This document shows positions 19,655-60,907 of a stretch of 64,000 bases of DNA, piece by piece; position 1 is the first letter of the stretch; every line of letters begins with the position of its first letter. The stretch lies in the IMG/VR virus record IMGVR_UViG_3300009448_000011, positions 1 to 64,000 of that record. The stretch is one strand, 5' to 3'. A program made the translations under genes and the position numbers. Source of the stretch: a virus. The notes beneath the pieces are model-generated. The model was given only the letters and a program-made list of their open reading frames with translations, did no database searches and had not been told where the DNA came from.

Positions 19655-22600
19655 ATGAATAAATCTAATAACAATCCTAACGAACATTTTTTTAACGATT
19701 TTATTAATGAAATGACGGCGGCAAATCTACAATCACAAGGCAACATGTCTATAATTGAATTTGCTAACAGAATTATTTTTAATAATGATCCTGACTTTCA
19801 ACTTTTTCCAACACAAAAAGCAATATTAAAATCATTTTATAAAGAACCTTTAACTCAACAAGAACAAGATATTTTAGTTGATTGGGTAAAAGAAGAACGT
19901 TCTACTTGGGTTCATGATAGAAAATATATTTCTTTAGTTTTAGAAGCTGGTAGACGCGCAAGTAAAGCACTTGATTTAAATACGCTAATTGAGACTCCTG
20001 AAGGAACTAAAAAATTTAGAAATATTAAAAAAGGAGATTATGTATTTGGGGTTAAGGGAACTCCTGTTAAAGTATTAGAGGAAACTGAAATATTTCATAA
20101 TCATAATATATATGAATTAACGTTTGATGATGGTTCTAAGGTGAAATGTGATGAGGGTCATCTATGGAAAACTAAGGACAACGCTTCTAAAAAAATAGGT
20201 AATTCTACAATAAAAACAACTAAAGAAATAGTTAATAGTTTATTTATAAAAAGAAAAGACGGGACATTAGAACCTAATCATAGTATTGAATTAGCAAAAC
20301 CTTTAAAATACTCAAAACAATCTTTATTAATACATCCTTGGGTACTAGGAGTTTGGTTAGGAAATGGAACTTCTCGCAAAGGGGAAATTACAGCTAGTAA
20401 AGAAGATATTTATTTTATAATGAATAAATTTAATAAACTAGGTTACTACGTTACAGGGGAATCTAGTAATGATTATACATATAAATTTTATTCTGAAAGA
20501 TTAAATAAAGAATTACAGCAATTAAATTTATTAAAAAATAAACATATTCCTACTAAATATCTTTATTCTTCTTTAGCACAACGCATTCATTTATTAAAAG
20601 GATTAATGGATACTGACGGAACAGTATCTAAAAAAGGTAAAACGACTTTTATAAATACCAATTTTAATTTAACAGAAAGCGTGTTTAAACTTGCCGTATC
20701 TTTAGGGGCTTATGCAACTAGAGCTAAATATCCAAGCAGTTATATTACAAATAATACTAAAACATCTTCAAAAATCTATGAAGAAATAAGCTTAAGATCT
20801 GATATTTTTCCTATATCTGTACCAAGAAAGATAAAAAGATATACACCTTGTACAACTGACAATAACAAAAGATTTATTACATCTGCAATTTTAATACCTA
20901 CCTTACCTGTTAAGTGCATCACTGTTGAAGGTGGTTTATTTTTAATAAGTAATAATATTATTACTCATAATTGTAATTCTTCTTCCGCAATTATTGCTAC
21001 TACTAAAGGTGATATTACTTATGGTGAATTACATGAATTACTTTCTAAAAAACAAAAAGTAGGTATTTATACTTATGATTTTAGTAAAAATATAGTTAAA
21101 AGTTTTTTGACGTATGATATTAAAAGTGAGTTAAATGCAGTAGAGCAAACATATTTAGTAAGAACAGAAACAGGAAAAGTAGAAATAGTAAATGAGAATC
21201 ATCCTTTTCTTACATGGGGAGGAAAAAATAAACCTGTTCCATATTGGAAACAATTAAAAGATCTAAAAAAAGGAGACTTAATTGCAACATCTACGCATCT
21301 ACCTTTATTTGGGACCCACAAATTAGACAAAGACTATTTAGAAATAATAGCAATTGCGTTAACTGCGTATTCTCTGGAAGCAAATCCTCAAGGTAAAAAA
21401 GATTTTATACCTAAAATTGTTAAGTATTTTAATATAGGTATTATAAAGAAGGATAAATTTAAAGAGACACTACGTTCTTATTTAAAAAACGTAATTGACA
21501 GTCTTAGTACAGAATTATTAGGAAGTTTAGATAAAGAAAGTTTGCATACTTTATTATTTTATATTTTAAAATATGGAAGAATGCTTATGGATGAAACTGC
21601 ATTCAGAGAGAATGATGGATACAATCAAACGTTATGTATAAAGATTAGATTAGAAAAATTTGTAGGACTAATTGCCCGTCAATTTTTAAAATTTGGAATC
21701 ACTACTGATTGTGTTCCTCAAGATAAATTCAAAAAGCAATTTTGGATATATAATACAGAGAGTATACACGTACTACTAGCCACGTTTGGGTATGACATAT
21801 TTAAAGGGGAAGAATTCATAAGAAAGAAATTATGTAAAAAGAACAAAAGTTTAGTTAGTAATGGATCAACAAAAGAAAATGTATTACCTAGGGGGATACC
21901 GCATAGTTGCAAAGGAACAAATGAACCTAGCAAAAGAGGTCACAAAAATATACTACAAAAGTATCATGAAGAAAATAATACGTTAACACTGCAATTATAT
22001 GATTGGTGTACTAATGAAATTAATTGGGAATATATAGGTGAAATCACGCCATATGCAATTGAACAAACTATTGCGTTAGAAGTAGCAGATACTCATGTAA
22101 TAGGAAATGGTATTATTTCACATAATTCTACAATGGCATCTATTATTGCTTTAAAAGAATTTTATGACTTAATAATTTTAGATAACCCTCATAAACAGTA
22201 TGGAATTTTAAGTGGATCTCCTATTGCTATATTAGTAATGGCTCAATCACAAGCTCAAGTAAAAGAAACAATATTTGCTGCTATTAGAGGTTACGCAAAT
22301 AATTCTAGATATTTTACTGCGTTACAAAATAAAGGCGAAATAGAAATATTATCTGAAGAAATTAGATGTTATAGCAAGAATGTATCTATCTTTGCAAAAC
22401 ATACTAATAGTAAATCGTTGGTAGGGTATACACTTAAATGTATGTTACTAGATGAAGTTGCTAGATTTGAGACAATAGGAGAAGAAGGTAAAAATAAAGC
22501 TTTTGAAATTTGGGAAAATATTGGTGCGGGGGGTTCTACTTTTGGGCATCATTTTAAAAAAGTGGCTATATCTTCTGCTTGGGAACCTAATGATCCTATA

Positions 22601-24673
22601 GAGATTTTATATAATAGAGCCCAGAGAGATCCAAATACTCTTGCTTTTAAACTTACTACTTTTCAAGTTAATTTAAATTTAAAAAAAGGAGTTACTCCCG
22701 TTATTGTTTCTGATTATACTAACGATTTTATTAAAGCTCGTAGAGAATATGAAGGTATACGTTTTACTAAATTTAATACTTTTATTGATATAGAAAATCT
22801 AGATAAAGCAGCTACCTGCGTTAGTATTATTGATGCAATTCCTTCTCAAATAGATACTAAGACTAACACAGGATATAAGTATTATGCAGGTGTAGATATT
22901 TTAAGAATAACTCCCAATACACCAGAAGATTCTGTTAGTTTTATACATGTAGATCCTGCTTTAAAAAAAGATAGTGCAGCTTTAGCAATTGCTCGCACAG
23001 TATTGGTAGAAGATACATGGAAAATACAAATAGATGCGTTACTAAAATGGGAACCTCATACCGACAATAAAGGTTTAAAAAGAATAGTTTCTTTTATTGA
23101 TATAGAAGATAAACTAAAAGAAATTATTTCTAAAAGACGTGTCGGTAAAGTAACTTTTGATCAGTGGAATTGTTTACAAGAAGATTCTTTAATTTTAACT
23201 AAAAACGGCTTTAAACCACTTAATACTTTGCAATTACATCAAGAAGTAATATCTAATAAAGGTGTTAATAAAATAGTTAATTTAGAAAAAAAAGAGAATA
23301 TACCTACATTAAAAATAACTACAGAAAAAGGGTATGTGATTGAAGGAACATATAACCATCCTTTATTAACAACAGACAATATTTTTCAAGAATTACAAAA
23401 TTTAAATATTGGGGATAAGTTAAGATTAAATATTCCGGTAGTAACTACTGTTAATAAACAACCTAGTTTATATCAAGAACATGAAGCGTTAGTTTTAGGT
23501 TATTTAATAGCTAAAGGACATTGGGGAGATTTTAAAGATAATATAAGATTTTCTAATCTAGAAGAAGACGTTATAAATGATTATAAATTTAGTATTAAGC
23601 AACTAATAAGAACACAACCTCATGTTTATTCTAGAGTCTCTAGTAATCCTAATAATCCAATTTTGAAAGAAGTATCTGTAACTAATAAAAAGTATTATTG
23701 CAAACTAACTAAAGATTTAGATTTACAAACAGAAGATTTTAATAAAAAAATTCCCAACTATATATTTACTGCTACAAAAAAAGAAATTGGATTATTAATT
23801 TCTGGATTGTTTGAAGGAAAAGGAACTATATACATACAAGAAGCCACTTTAAAAAAATCAGCAAGATTATTTATAGAGTTAACTACTGTTTCTAAAAAAC
23901 TCAGTATTCAATTACAACAATTATTATTATATTTAGGTATTAAGTCTACTCGTAACAAATATTATAAAAAACCTTATTTTGAAGATAATATTATTTATTA
24001 CAAAGTAGTTATTTCAGACTATGATTTAATACATTTTAAAAATGCAGTAGGATTTAGGGGCTACTTAAAAAGCAATGAATTAGAAAAAGCTATTTTGTTA
24101 TTAAATACTAATACAGTAGATAATTTTAACGATAGAATTATTTCTATCAAAAAAACTATGTCTACAATTATGCATATGGAGGTTTCAGGAGATCATACTT
24201 ATTGTTCAGAATTTATAAACCACAATAGTCAATCTCTTATACAAAAATTAAATGCTCAAGGAATTGATGCTCAAACAGCTTCGTGTAGTCGAGAAAATCA
24301 ATTTATTTATTTCACTTTATTTAGAGATTTATTAGCGCATAATTATATAGTATTACCTAAGGATAGTTTATGGTCTAACAATGCAATCACAGAATTATCT
24401 GAATTAGTATTACGGCCTAATAGACAAATAATACATCCAACTGCGGGTAAAGATTTAGCGGATGCTATTGTTAATGCGGTATATCAATGTCATCAACATA
24501 TGATCCAAACTGGATTAACTTTAAATATAGGATTAAGTGCAGAAAATATTCCTTCTGTAGGATTAACGCCTCTTGCCCATATTAATGTAACAAATAGTAA
24601 AACTAGTAAAGAACGCTTAAAATTAGGCACTGCCATAGATAGACTTTATAATACTAGAGCCAGGCGTATTTAG
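19655..24673 (+). CDS. terL: Terminase large subunit precursor with three inteins
   Basis: The 1672-residue precursor collapses to a 600-residue terminase once inteins at residues 105-439, 440-824 and 1173-1524 are removed. Joined exteins give a Walker A of GRRASK (99-104) plus ST (825-826), a Walker B CMLLDE (D933, E934), and the RNase H-like nuclease acids D1100 (FIHVDPA), D1169 (KVTFDQW) and D1600 or D1603 (GKDLADAI). The enzyme should use ATP to drive DNA into procapsids and cut the concatemer. The first two inteins sit together in the ATP-binding loop and the third follows the second nuclease acid, so unspliced precursor should lack both activities. Inteins make up 1072 of 1672 residues. 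It lies between tail genes and the giant virion protein on the same strand. Confidence 0.93.
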   Translation: MNKSNNNPNEHFFNDFINEMTAANLQSQGNMSIIEFANRIIFNNDPDFQLFPTQKAILKSFYKEPLTQQEQDILVDWVKEERSTWVHDRKYISLVLEAGRRASKALDLNTLIETPEGTKKFRNIKKGDYVFGVKGTPVKVLEETEIFHNHNIYELTFDDGSKVKCDEGHLWKTKDNASKKIGNSTIKTTKEIVNSLFIKRKDGTLEPNHSIELAKPLKYSKQSLLIHPWVLGVWLGNGTSRKGEITASKEDIYFIMNKFNKLGYYVTGESSNDYTYKFYSERLNKELQQLNLLKNKHIPTKYLYSSLAQRIHLLKGLMDTDGTVSKKGKTTFINTNFNLTESVFKLAVSLGAYATRAKYPSSYITNNTKTSSKIYEEISLRSDIFPISVPRKIKRYTPCTTDNNKRFITSAILIPTLPVKCITVEGGLFLISNNIITHNCNSSSAIIATTKGDITYGELHELLSKKQKVGIYTYDFSKNIVKSFLTYDIKSELNAVEQTYLVRTETGKVEIVNENHPFLTWGGKNKPVPYWKQLKDLKKGDLIATSTHLPLFGTHKLDKDYLEIIAIALTAYSLEANPQGKKDFIPKIVKYFNIGIIKKDKFKETLRSYLKNVIDSLSTELLGSLDKESLHTLLFYILKYGRMLMDETAFRENDGYNQTLCIKIRLEKFVGLIARQFLKFGITTDCVPQDKFKKQFWIYNTESIHVLLATFGYDIFKGEEFIRKKLCKKNKSLVSNGSTKENVLPRGIPHSCKGTNEPSKRGHKNILQKYHEENNTLTLQLYDWCTNEINWEYIGEITPYAIEQTIALEVADTHVIGNGIISHNSTMASIIALKEFYDLIILDNPHKQYGILSGSPIAILVMAQSQAQVKETIFAAIRGYANNSRYFTALQNKGEIEILSEEIRCYSKNVSIFAKHTNSKSLVGYTLKCMLLDEVARFETIGEEGKNKAFEIWENIGAGGSTFGHHFKKVAISSAWEPNDPIEILYNRAQRDPNTLAFKLTTFQVNLNLKKGVTPVIVSDYTNDFIKARREYEGIRFTKFNTFIDIENLDKAATCVSIIDAIPSQIDTKTNTGYKYYAGVDILRITPNTPEDSVSFIHVDPALKKDSAALAIARTVLVEDTWKIQIDALLKWEPHTDNKGLKRIVSFIDIEDKLKEIISKRRVGKVTFDQWNCLQEDSLILTKNGFKPLNTLQLHQEVISNKGVNKIVNLEKKENIPTLKITTEKGYVIEGTYNHPLLTTDNIFQELQNLNIGDKLRLNIPVVTTVNKQPSLYQEHEALVLGYLIAKGHWGDFKDNIRFSNLEEDVINDYKFSIKQLIRTQPHVYSRVSSNPNNPILKEVSVTNKKYYCKLTKDLDLQTEDFNKKIPNYIFTATKKEIGLLISGLFEGKGTIYIQEATLKKSARLFIELTTVSKKLSIQLQQLLLYLGIKSTRNKYYKKPYFEDNIIYYKVVISDYDLIHFKNAVGFRGYLKSNELEKAILLLNTNTVDNFNDRIISIKKTMSTIMHMEVSGDHTYCSEFINHNSQSLIQKLNAQGIDAQTASCSRENQFIYFTLFRDLLAHNYIVLPKDSLWSNNAITELSELVLRPNRQIIHPTAGKDLADAIVNAVYQCHQHMIQTGLTLNIGLSAENIPSVGLTPLAHINVTNSKTSKERLKLGTAIDRLYNTRARRI
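19967..20971 (+). other. TerL intein 1: class 3 (WCT) intein in Walker A
   Basis: This intein covers precursor residues 105-439 (335 aa). It starts with Ala (ALDLNTLIETPEG), not Cys or Ser, and ends IITHN. It carries the class 3 splicing signature: Trp171 in GHLWKT (block B), Cys421 in VKCITVEG (block F) and Thr437 in THN (block G). The +1 residue is Cys440, which is also the first residue of intein 2. LAGLIDADG-like motifs are LGVWLGNG (catalytic acid replaced by Asn) and LLKGLMDTDG (intact), so the homing endonuclease is probably impaired. It is homologous to the intein in the PIF1-like helicase (shared YLYSS and LKGLMD blocks). Confidence 0.9.
20972..22126 (+). other. TerL intein 2: class 1 intein abutting intein 1
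   Basis: This intein covers precursor residues 440-824 (385 aa). It begins with a Cys1 block A (CNSSSAIIATTKGDITYGEL), has a block B ENHPFLTW and a DLKKGDLIA segment, and ends GIISHN followed by Ser825 of the extein. No extein residue separates it from intein 1. A canonical LAGLIDADG pair is not obvious in its 250-residue insert, so any endonuclease is degenerate or of another type. Boundaries follow from the HN end, Cys1 and restoration of GRRASKST. Confidence 0.85.
23171..24226 (+). other. TerL intein 3: class 1 intein in nuclease domain
   Basis: This intein covers precursor residues 1173-1524 (352 aa). It starts CLQEDSLILTKNGFKPL, has a block B YNHPLLTT, and ends EFINHN followed by Ser. 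Excision joins FDQWN to SQSLIQKL, an uninterrupted terminase nuclease segment. LAGLIDADG-like motifs read VLGYLIAKG and ISGLFEGKG, with the catalytic acid position occupied by Lys in both. The homing endonuclease is therefore predicted to be inactive while the splicing residues are intact. Confidence 0.9.
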
Positions 24674-41826: not shown

Positions 41827-44067
41827 TTATTGTATCCATTTTAAATACGAAGGATCTATAAAACAACATTTAATTAAATCTTCAGGAGTTCCTACGATAA
41901 CAAGTCCTTCGGGAGTTTTAACTCTACTCAAAGCAGTATAAATCATGCCACTTTGTTTAGATAAGAATCTTTGTCCCTCGCCGTTAATACATAATTGAAC
42001 TTTATCTAAGGTAAGTCCTTGAACTCTGTGTATAGTAGCCGCGCTAGCTAATCTAGCTCTCATAACAGTTAACTTTCCTATGGCTTCTTGTTTGTTTGCA
42101 AAACGATTTTTACTAAAATCAAAATGAAGTAATTCTTGAGGTTTTAAAAATATTTCTTTATTTTTTCTAAGTAATGAAAGATATAAAGTATTTTTCCATA
42201 AATCAGTAACTATGGCAGTATCCCCGTTAGCAAACCCTTCTTTTAAATTATTATATAATAATTGAACTAATGAACCTTTTTTAACTTCTAGCTTTAAAGG
42301 AAAATTATTCCAAGTAGGATGGGGCACACCTGTTAAAGTTGCATAATAACACCTACTTTCTCCTCGTAGTCTTTCAAGACAAATTTTATTATGCATTTCT
42401 ACTTCATTATTTGTTGAAAAAAAAGTAGTACCTCTAAAATAACTATCTACTTCTGGCACAAAACTAATATTATTTTTAAGCCAATCTAAACATTCATGAA
42501 TTTTTCCTTTTCTTATACAACTTAAAGCTTCTATAAACTCTTTATTATCTTGTCTTTTAACTTCTGTTAAATACTTTATTTCAAATCTTTGCCAACATTT
42601 AGCTCTAAAAATAGGGGCCCCTTCTACTGGGGCTAATTGGGCTAAATCTCCACTAATTAATAATCCTAAATCTTTATTATAGTCTTTATTAAATCTATCT
42701 AAAGATAAAACAATTAAATCTAATACGCTGGCGCTTATTAAGGAAATTTCATCAATTACTATATTATTATATTTCTTAGCAATCTTACTTAATGATTTAT
42801 CTATTGTTTTTGTACAAAACGCTCTTAATAAACTTTCTGCATTAAAATATCCTAACGCTGAATTAATAGTGGTAGCTTCTGTAGCATCTCTAATAGATCC
42901 TAAATTTAAAGCAGCTATCCCTGTGGTAGCAGTTCTTAACGCAAATTTAGGATCTTCTTGTATTTTTGAGTTTATATAATAACTATTATGTGTGACTACA
43001 AAGTTTTCCACTACATATGTGTGTAAAGGATTTTCTACCTGTATACATCTGCCATCTTTTTTTCCTACATAAATTATGTCAACTATTTTTTTATTTAAAA
43101 TATCTCCTATTTTTCCTTCTATAAATAAGTCACTTTTTCGTTGTAATGAAAATATATTTAAATTAATTCTAATAGAAACATTGTATTCTGTTGGAAAATT
43201 TTCATTACCTATATATTGTTCTAATTTAGCTATACCCCCTAACGATCTAACTAAAAACATTACATCATTTGCTAATTTATTAGATGTAGTATTAAATGTC
43301 ATTTTTTTAACTTTAGAAGGGCTTAAATTAATATCTCCCCTACTATCCATTAATCCTTTTAATATTTTTAATCTATCTGAAATTGACGAATATAAATAGT
43401 TATTAGGAATAAATTTACAGGAATTATAAAACCACAATAAACCTAAATCTGAAAGATATTGTTTTATTTCACTAGATAGCGTAAATGTACCTGAAGACTT
43501 ATTTAAAGGTGTTTGTAATAATGTAGTTTTAATATTTAAAGGTAATAAGTTATCAAAAATAAGTTTAATTTCTATTGCATCTTTTAAAGGACAACTAACT
43601 GTTATTTGTTCCTGAAAATTTCCATTTCCTAACATATATCCTAATATATAAGGATGTAATGTTAACAGTTGTGCGTTTATATTAATAGGACTACATAAAG
43701 GAATAGAATATTTATAGCTTTTTATTTTATTATCACTTTTAAAATCTTTTAACATTTCTTTTGTAGAAAGCACTTTATACTTATTTCTCTTTAATGATTT
43801 TAAGTTTGTTGTTTGTACTTTCCATAAATGATCTTCACAAGCTTCTATAAACGTGTCGTCATTAAATACTACTTTATATATATTTAAGTCTTTTCCTTCC
43901 CATATATTTAAAATTTTAGTGGGATTTCCATCCTCACATATTACTTCACTATTAATTGTTAATTCTTTATTCTTAATATATCCTTCAGGCGTTAACACTA
44001 ATGTTTCATTTGTTAGTAATTTTCCAGTTCCTGCTGAACCAAATAAAGCGTTTAATCTAGTTTCCAT
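41827..44067 (-). CDS. PIF1/RecD-like SF1B helicase precursor with intein
   Basis: The 746-residue precursor contains a 345-residue intein (residues 17-361) inside Walker A; splicing restores GSAGTGKS and a 401-residue helicase. Other motifs are motif Ia TATTGIAALNLG, Walker B NIVIDEIS, motif III SGDLAQLAPVEG, motif IV LTEVKRQD, motif V ASAATIHRVQGLTL and motif VI YTALSRVKTPEGLVIVG. These identify a PIF1/Dda-type 5'-3' helicase, probably the replicative or recombination helicase. The N-terminus before Walker A is only nine residues. It begins on the last base of the upstream 72-residue gene (TAATG) and is followed by the primase. Confidence 0.9.
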   Translation of the reverse strand: METRLNALFGSAGTGKLLTNETLVLTPEGYIKNKELTINSEVICEDGNPTKILNIWEGKDLNIYKVVFNDDTFIEACEDHLWKVQTTNLKSLKRNKYKVLSTKEMLKDFKSDNKIKSYKYSIPLCSPININAQLLTLHPYILGYMLGNGNFQEQITVSCPLKDAIEIKLIFDNLLPLNIKTTLLQTPLNKSSGTFTLSSEIKQYLSDLGLLWFYNSCKFIPNNYLYSSISDRLKILKGLMDSRGDINLSPSKVKKMTFNTTSNKLANDVMFLVRSLGGIAKLEQYIGNENFPTEYNVSIRINLNIFSLQRKSDLFIEGKIGDILNKKIVDIIYVGKKDGRCIQVENPLHTYVVENFVVTHNSYYINSKIQEDPKFALRTATTGIAALNLGSIRDATEATTINSALGYFNAESLLRAFCTKTIDKSLSKIAKKYNNIVIDEISLISASVLDLIVLSLDRFNKDYNKDLGLLISGDLAQLAPVEGAPIFRAKCWQRFEIKYLTEVKRQDNKEFIEALSCIRKGKIHECLDWLKNNISFVPEVDSYFRGTTFFSTNNEVEMHNKICLERLRGESRCYYATLTGVPHPTWNNFPLKLEVKKGSLVQLLYNNLKEGFANGDTAIVTDLWKNTLYLSLLRKNKEIFLKPQELLHFDFSKNRFANKQEAIGKLTVMRARLASAATIHRVQGLTLDKVQLCINGEGQRFLSKQSGMIYTALSRVKTPEGLVIVGTPEDLIKCCFIDPSYLKWIQ
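42985..44019 (-). other. Class 3 intein with Leu1 in helicase Walker A
   Basis: Residues 17-361 of the helicase precursor start with Leu (LLTNETLVLTPEG) and end VVTHN followed by Ser. The class 3 triad is present: Trp82 in DHLWKV, Cys341 in GRCIQVEN and Thr359 in THN. Insertion is at GTGK|S, the same position relative to the P-loop as TerL intein 1, and the two inteins share blocks such as YLYSS and LKGLMD. Both LAGLIDADG motifs have lost the acid (LGYMLGNG, LKGLMDSRG), so homing is probably dead. Confidence 0.9.
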
Positions 44068-59644: not shown

Positions 59645-60907
59645 ATGATAGTTAGAGAAGCCAAGCTAAAATACGGTACAGCAGAGCAATATTCTGCCAT
59701 TGATAAAGCCATCCGAACAGCACAGTTCATTCGGAACAAAGCCGTTCGCTATTGGATGGACAATCAAGGTACGAGTAAAGCCGATCTGTACAGTATCTGC
59801 AAAGACTTGGCTAAAGAGTTTGACTTTGCTAAAAAGCTTAACTCCGCTGCTCGTCAGGCTAGTGCTGAACGTGCTTGGGTTGCTATCTCTAGCTTCTACA
59901 CCCGATGCAAAAAGCGGCTCACTCCAGTTGGGTCTCCCAACCATGGAAGTAAGACAAAACAAGGCGTAGGCAAGAAAGGTTTTCCAAAGTTTAAGAAACA
60001 TTGTCGTTCTGTTGAGTATAAGGTTTCAGGATGGAAACTATCGAAAGATTGCAAATCGATCGCATTCACTGATGGTTTTGAGATTGGAACATTATCGATA
60101 TTTTGCAACAATGAAACTCAAGAAGACTTGCATAGGCTGAAAATTAATCGTGTGCGGATCGTGCGGAGAGCAGACGGGTATTATGCCCAATTCTGTTTTG
60201 ATGCAGATCGTAAAGAGCAAGGGGAATATTCAGGCAATGTTGTCGGATTGGATTTAGGGTTGAAGTTTTTCACCAAAGACCAAAACGATAATGCTGTAAT
60301 ATATCCACAGTTCTTGAGAAAGGCCCAGATGCAACTCAAGAAAACTCAACGTCGATTAAGCAAGAAATTTGTGAAGGGTGCCAAACCCCAATCAAACAAC
60401 TACCACAAGGCGCAAAAACAACTAGGAAGAATTCATCTCAAAATTCAACGCCAGCGAAAAGATTGGGCGATAAAAGCCGCCCGAAACGTAGTGATATCTA
60501 ACGATGTCGTGGTGTATGAAAATTTGAAGATTGCGAACATGGTCAAAAATCATCATTTGGCTAAGTCAATTTCCGATGCTGGTTGGTATCAATACACTCA
60601 ATGGCTGGACTACTATGGCAAGATTTGGGATAAAGCAGTTGTGGCAGTATCGCCAAACTATACGTCTCAAGATTGCTCTAATTGCGGTCATCGAGTGAAA
60701 AAGTCTCTTAGTACCAGAACGCACTCATGCCCCAACTGCAAAATTGAAATTTGTCGCGATACGAATGCGGCTTTGAATATCTTGCACAAGGGATTGAACA
60801 TTCTTGGTGTTGAGTGGGACAAAAACAGTACTTCTGGGCAAGAAGGATCTGCCTCTGAGAATGAGGGAAAGCGCGGGGAGAGATGTACCTCTACAGTCGA
60901 TGAGTAA
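59645..60907 (+). CDS. tnpB: TnpB (OrfB) RNA-guided nuclease
   Basis: The 420-residue product has the TnpB layout: an N-terminal WED/REC-like part, then a split RuvC with D203 (VGLDLGLKFF), E292 (VVVYENLKI) and D372 (CRDTNAALNIL). Its zinc finger uses C344, C347, C362 and C365 (CSNCGH ... CPNCK). All catalytic residues are present, so it is probably active. TnpB uses an RNA made from the element's right end to cut empty donor sites and so favour element retention. The Ser/Gly/Glu-rich C-terminus after residue 390 overlaps the RNA-coding end. Codon use is unlike the AT-rich phage genes. Confidence 0.95.
   Translation: MIVREAKLKYGTAEQYSAIDKAIRTAQFIRNKAVRYWMDNQGTSKADLYSICKDLAKEFDFAKKLNSAARQASAERAWVAISSFYTRCKKRLTPVGSPNHGSKTKQGVGKKGFPKFKKHCRSVEYKVSGWKLSKDCKSIAFTDGFEIGTLSIFCNNETQEDLHRLKINRVRIVRRADGYYAQFCFDADRKEQGEYSGNVVGLDLGLKFFTKDQNDNAVIYPQFLRKAQMQLKKTQRRLSKKFVKGAKPQSNNYHKAQKQLGRIHLKIQRQRKDWAIKAARNVVISNDVVVYENLKIANMVKNHHLAKSISDAGWYQYTQWLDYYGKIWDKAVVAVSPNYTSQDCSNCGHRVKKSLSTRTHSCPNCKIEICRDTNAALNILHKGLNILGVEWDKNSTSGQEGSASENEGKRGERCTSTVDE

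Follow-up and report, generated by a model that had tools for sequence, protein, structure and literature searches.

Two inteins of different class abut at one bond in the Walker A motif of a phage large terminase

An intein is regarded as a self-sufficient unit with two splice junctions that belong to it alone. What, then, is to be made of a gene where one intein ends and another begins with nothing of the host protein between them? This question is raised by a large terminase (TerL) gene in a viral record 105,687 bases long, of which bases 1-64000 are the stretch analyzed here (the window). An earlier sequence-only reading had placed two different inteins back to back at the same Walker A bond of this protein, at positions 19961-22135.

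The list of open reading frames gives the TerL frame as 19655-24673 on the plus strand, 1672 amino acids with no internal stop. The gene adjoins a very long open reading frame, as it does in Microcystis phage LMM01 and its kin. Between K104 and S825, 720 codons run without a stop, an outcome whose chance is about 10^-30 at the local base composition; the other five frames carry 30-105 stops each over this stretch. The frame divides as follows.

19655-19966, plus strand: TerL N-extein, residues 1-104, ending in the Walker A sequence GRRASK (open reading frame; alignment with LMM01 and My-WqHQDG)
19967-20971, plus strand: intein 1, class 3, 335 residues (105-439), ALDLNT...IITHN (homologous over its entire length to class 3 inteins in phage terminases)
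20165-20167, plus strand: Trp B:12 of intein 1 (W67; W171 of the precursor), invariant in the alignment with relatives
20363-20365, plus strand: LAGLIDADG block C of intein 1, catalytic Asp changed to Asn (LGNG; LGDG in 42 of the 42 class 3 relatives counted)
20915-20917, plus strand: Cys F:4 of intein 1 (C317; C421 of the precursor), the initiating nucleophile, invariant in the alignment
20969-20974, plus strand: Asn439-Cys440, the scissile bond that is C-terminal for intein 1 and N-terminal for intein 2 (from the sequence)
20972-22126, plus strand: intein 2, class 1, 385 residues (440-824), CNSSS...GIISHN, with a degenerate homing endonuclease core (PF14890; homologues at the same K^S/T bond; model and Foldseek)
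22127-23170, plus strand: TerL middle extein, residues 825-1172, starting STMASI, with Ser825 as the +1 residue of intein 2 (47% identity to the LMM01 terminase)
23171-24226, plus strand: intein 3, class 1, 352 residues (1173-1524), at the nuclease-domain site TFDQWN^SQSLIQ (Pfam matches; site empty in LMM01)
24227-24673, plus strand: TerL C-extein, residues 1525-1672, plus the stop (alignment)

Does removal of the inserts give back a terminase? Judged from its alignments, the protein encoded at 19655-24673 is related to the large terminase of LMM01. Inteins 1 and 2 both split the Walker A lysine from its serine (GRRASK^S). Excising the two in silico gives GRRASKSTMASI, which aligns without gaps with intein-free relatives and so bears out the earlier proposal that their excision restores Walker A. 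When all three inserts are removed, the junction aligns with those of LMM01 (GRRGGK-SVLAS), My-WqHQDG (GRRGSK-SAMAS), and L008, an IMG/VR contig of 251,780 bases (GRRGSK-STIAS). Compared with the intein-free terminases of LMM01, My-WqHQDG, and MaMV-DH01, the spliced TerL has no missing or extra residue at either site. Identity to LMM01-type terminases is 46-49%, with no gap at the junction, and L008 is a closer relative, at 59%; the K^S site is empty, too, in the LMM01-like contigs L008-L024 and L029-L031. Once the inserts are left out, Walker A and the ATPase and nuclease domains are all present. For the ATPase to be active, both inteins would have to leave. The middle extein is the only TerL match in the 105.7-kb record, which may be incomplete.

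At the seam, the DNA reads ACT CAT AAT / TGT AAT TCT, encoding T H N / C N S. As had been claimed, intein 1 ends in THN and the cysteine of intein 2 is the very next residue. That two complete inteins of different class abut at one bond, with no residue between them, is confirmed at the level of sequence. It follows from the zero-length gap that the bond Asn439-Cys440 serves intein 1 as its exit and intein 2 as its entry. The exact borders agree with the further claim that Cys440 is both the +1 residue of intein 1 and Cys1 of intein 2, and this one cysteine is predicted to have to serve the removal of both. The same borders (19967 and 22126) mean that the limits first given lay in the right region but overshot it by a few codons on each side.

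The seam might, of course, be a product of assembly, two alleles of one phage population, each with one intein, having been joined. The junction is known from a single record, and no second contig with its exact pattern was found in a search from which near-identical records may be hidden. The seam is, however, codon-exact at both intein ends, and misassembly is considered very unlikely because the junctions are not spanned by any repeat of at least 14 bases on which an assembler could have changed paths. It is just as improbable that the 720 residues exit as one composite intein, to which intein 1 would contribute its N-terminal half and intein 2 its C-terminal half. By themselves, the outer borders (A105 and N824) would make a legal intein at K^S. 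However, each block has complete N- and C-terminal splicing motifs of its own, and the two share little sequence (no mutual blastp match at E<=1).

The class of intein 1 is read from its kin. In tblastn it matches 726 phage records, with E values down to 2e-48; the matches listed run from residue 1 or 2 to residue 335, and many belong to annotated terminases. From end to end it aligns with the terminase inteins of Synechococcus phage B23 and of Mycobacterium phages Gaia and Nebkiss, and it also matches class 3 DnaB inteins in PDB. As expected of class 3, its first residue, Ala105, is not Cys, Ser, or Thr, His B:10 is present as H65, and the C-terminus is H334-N335. Trp B:12 (W67), Cys F:4 (C317), and Thr G:5 (T333) are in place, as they are in the B23 and Nebkiss inteins; an assignment to class 2 was rejected because all three of these are there.

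The +1 residue of intein 1, Cys440, is another matter, since Ser or Thr is customary. Class 3 inteins carry Ser or Thr at this position, the Bvi IcmO intein with its Cys+1 being the sole exception reported, and two class 3 inteins still splice when their Ser+1 is replaced by Cys (PMC5222942). The exception and the mutants make a Cys+1 on a class 3 intein unusual, yet chemically acceptable. Intein 1 thus resembles Bvi IcmO, except that the Cys+1 of the latter comes from the host protein, whereas here it comes from a second intein. Among the best 80 class 3 relatives in IMG/VR, with borders extracted, the +1 residue is Ser in 53, Thr in 27, and Cys in none; 45 of these 80 have Lys at -1, and a second intein directly follows the class 3 intein in none of them. 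In the B23 terminase, a class 3 intein is the sole occupant of the equivalent K^T bond.

Intein 2 has Cys440 first, His823-Asn824 last, and Ser825 at +1, as class 1 inteins should. It matches the Pfam family Intein_splicing (PF14890) with E 2e-7, the match ending exactly at residue 385, although its score alone, 31.4 bits, is under the curated cut-off of 35.8. Searched alone, it gave no tblastn match in phage records and no sequence match in PDB. It aligns end to end, however, with terminase inteins at K^S/T, and the second intein of L026, in an LMM01-like terminase, aligns with residues 1-385 (E 6e-30). L032, L035, L132, L133, L136, L138, L139, L140, and L148 have a single intein at GRRGTK^S/T or at a sequence close to it. 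A tree of splicing domains puts intein 2 in a supported ten-row set (98/99) with L026_B, L132, L133, L034_2, L142, and the G^S inteins, although its branch is long and its exact position unsure; within that set, the G^S inteins (L143, L146, L147, and the first intein of L026) form a group of their own (93/95). On these alignments and this tree, intein 2 belongs, as a diverged member, to a family that in other phages occupies K^S/T by itself.

Structure prediction, too, points to an intein. An AlphaFold model of intein 2, built from six sequences, has a mean pLDDT of 71, with values of about 90 in large parts of the splicing halves, and Foldseek against PDB returns solved full-length inteins first (PI-PfuI, TliVMA). 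In block B, His77 is kept and Asn replaces Thr (NENH); relatives have T or S, and intein 2 is alone in this within the aligned family. The Ala of intein 2 at F:4 was considered as a sign of dependence on intein 1 and dropped, relatives that sit alone having Ala, Ser, or Gly there. The earlier assignment of intein 1 to class 3 and intein 2 to class 1 is therefore upheld by signature residues in alignments with relatives, and the splicing-domain homology that both blocks ought then to have was found, for intein 1 by tblastn and for intein 2 by Pfam and alignments.

A further set of LMM01-like terminases in IMG/VR (L143-L146) carries a 149-residue class 1 mini-intein at GRG^SSKS, three residues upstream of K^S and starting at residue 114 of the L143 frame. 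These mini-inteins form a clade separate from the K^S/T inteins.

How rare is such an arrangement? Two other IMG/VR contigs have, like this record, two inteins in one Walker A: L026 (3300039159_000083), reading GRGG/C...HN/SK/C...HN/STIA, and L034 (3300015370_000076), reading GRR/C...HN/SGK/C...HN/T. There, however, 2 (L026) or 3 (L034) host residues lie between the inteins, and both inteins begin with Cys1 and are class 1, so that no cysteine is shared. The view that abutting pairs are rarely if ever described stands to the extent that zero distance with two classes occurs, among the contigs compared, only in this record; it needs tempering to the extent that L026 and L034 crowd the same Walker A. 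No natural abutting pair was found in the open-access literature. Nor was one found among the open reading frames listed from 199 genomes of one bacterial phylum, with a profile that misses class 3; the bacterial frames listed with two intein matches have them hundreds of bases apart (G145:C68, 7842 to 8395; G066:C1, 38162 to 38694). When viral contigs were scanned with intein 1, with intein 2, or with the middle extein as a single sequence, nothing matched; the relatives in viral contigs came from profile scans.

How, then, might two inteins leave by way of one cysteine? Probably, GRRASK is handed to Cys440 as intein 1 leaves ahead of intein 2, which then splices; in this account, both activity and order are inferences. 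Here, Cys421 would take GRRASK as a thioester and hand it to the side chain of Cys440. In class 3 inteins, the branch at the F block comes before the branch at +1 (PMC5222942). Asn439 would then cyclize, freeing intein 1. GRRASK would stay behind on Cys440 as a thioester, the very species that intein 2, with its native Lys at -1, would form in its own first step. Intein 2 would shift GRRASK to Ser825, directly or, once the thioester has reverted to the amide, by starting afresh, and cyclization of Asn824 would leave K104 joined to S825.

This order is favored in part because intein 1 and Cys440 are translated before the rest of intein 2. That both inteins retain the main catalytic residues of their class supports the account as a whole, as does the presence of relatives of each alone at K^S/T elsewhere. 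With intein 1 first, intein 2 keeps the Lys that its family has at -1, and intein 1 must use Cys+1. The opposite order, in which intein 2 goes first, Asn439 is joined to Ser825, and intein 1 then splices with Ser+1, appears unlikely, but it has its attractions. It would give intein 1 the Ser+1 of its family and an ordinary context, and intein 1 may prefer Ser825 because Ser or Thr, never Cys, stands at +1 in its best 80 relatives; the Cys1 and Ser+1 of intein 2 are canonical as well. The cost would be that intein 2 starts with Asn at -1, where its family has Lys, and that a thioester at Asn439 could cyclize and cut the chain. The order of splicing had been said to matter. It does for the inteins, whose neighbors differ with the order, but the final protein is identical either way.

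Two further points weigh against the account that has intein 1 leave first. One peptide bond may be unable to fit both Hint active sites simultaneously, and intein 2 lacks the block B Thr. Because intein 1 would leave a thioester identical to intein 2's first product, the second reaction may start half done. It is conceivable, though doubtful, that intein 2 goes further and skips its own N-S acyl shift, depending on intein 1 so that the pair forms one coupled two-step machine. The NENH of block B would fit dependence on a thioester made in advance, a slender hint.

The homing functions have fared less well than the splicing functions. None of inteins 1, 2, and 3 has the intact LAGLIDADG catalytic residues of a mobile intein: intein 1 has one change in two motifs (LGNG, with LMDTDG intact), and intein 2 has neither acidic motif left. 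Because intein 2 has lost both and intein 1 shows one change, the pattern would suit a history in which intein 2 was there first and intein 1 came later, at the N-terminal seam of intein 2. Intein 3 matches LAGLIDADG_3 with E 1e-10 and Intein_splicing with E 8e-7, ending at residue 352; both of its LAGLIDADG acidic residues have become Lys (LIAKG, LFEGKG).

The loss of endonuclease residues in all three, together with the Asn in block B of intein 2, would also suit a gene in decay, where one intein, or the whole TerL, is inactive and the precursor only cleaves or stays unspliced. This is held to be improbable. The frame is open for 1672 codons, splicing residues are retained while endonuclease residues decay, the exteins are well conserved, and the record, which may be incomplete, holds no second TerL.

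The 105.7-kb phage record holds at least six inteins. A second class 3 intein in the window (42985-44019, minus strand; 345 residues; Leu1, HLW, RCI, THN) sits in a helicase with AAA_30/PIF1-type domains, at the Walker A site GSAGTGK^S, and its endonuclease motifs are changed too (LGNG, LMDSRG). Another intein interrupts a ribonucleotide reductase large subunit (L131, record 84500-89500, match near 86 kb; SNL^C...LVGN^CAEI); its penultimate residue is Gly, not His, and its endonuclease motifs look intact (TGDG, LDSDG). A further one, CFKPGEP...THN^C, lies in a metallopeptidase/VWA-like protein (L130, record 77500-81500, match near 79 kb), with altered endonuclease motifs (LAKG, FDGEG). The window also encodes a 420-residue transposase family protein at 59645-60907 on the plus strand (PHROG 506, integration and excision).

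Known systems approach this arrangement without reaching it. According to PMC5050341, class 3 and class 1 inteins are both found in phage terminases, and splicing has been shown for TerL1-b, -c, and -e. The mycobacteriophage TerL1-a site described there falls between the invariant Walker A Lys and Thr, the same bond as here, and lies one residue from the TerL1-b site, as against zero here; the passages covered describe no terminase with both TerL1-a and TerL1-b, and no abutting pair. The TerL of cyanophage Mic1 has inteins in its ATPase and nuclease domains, comparable to inteins 1 and 2 and to intein 3, but one per site, whereas two share K^S here (PMC7156551). In haloarchaeal MCM, a single gene likewise holds two inteins (MCM-a and MCM-d), one following the Walker A lysine, but their sites are distinct, and their study concerned homing interference, not a shared splice junction (PMC10643990).

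In this terminase, one peptide bond is both exit and entry, and one cysteine belongs to two different splicing mechanisms. It is thus a natural test case: can intermediates of splicing pass from one intein to another, how rigid is the order of the steps, and how does a second parasite settle precisely at a site already taken, where the homing target should have been destroyed? If the relay from intein 1 to intein 2 works, it may find use in ordered protein ligation.
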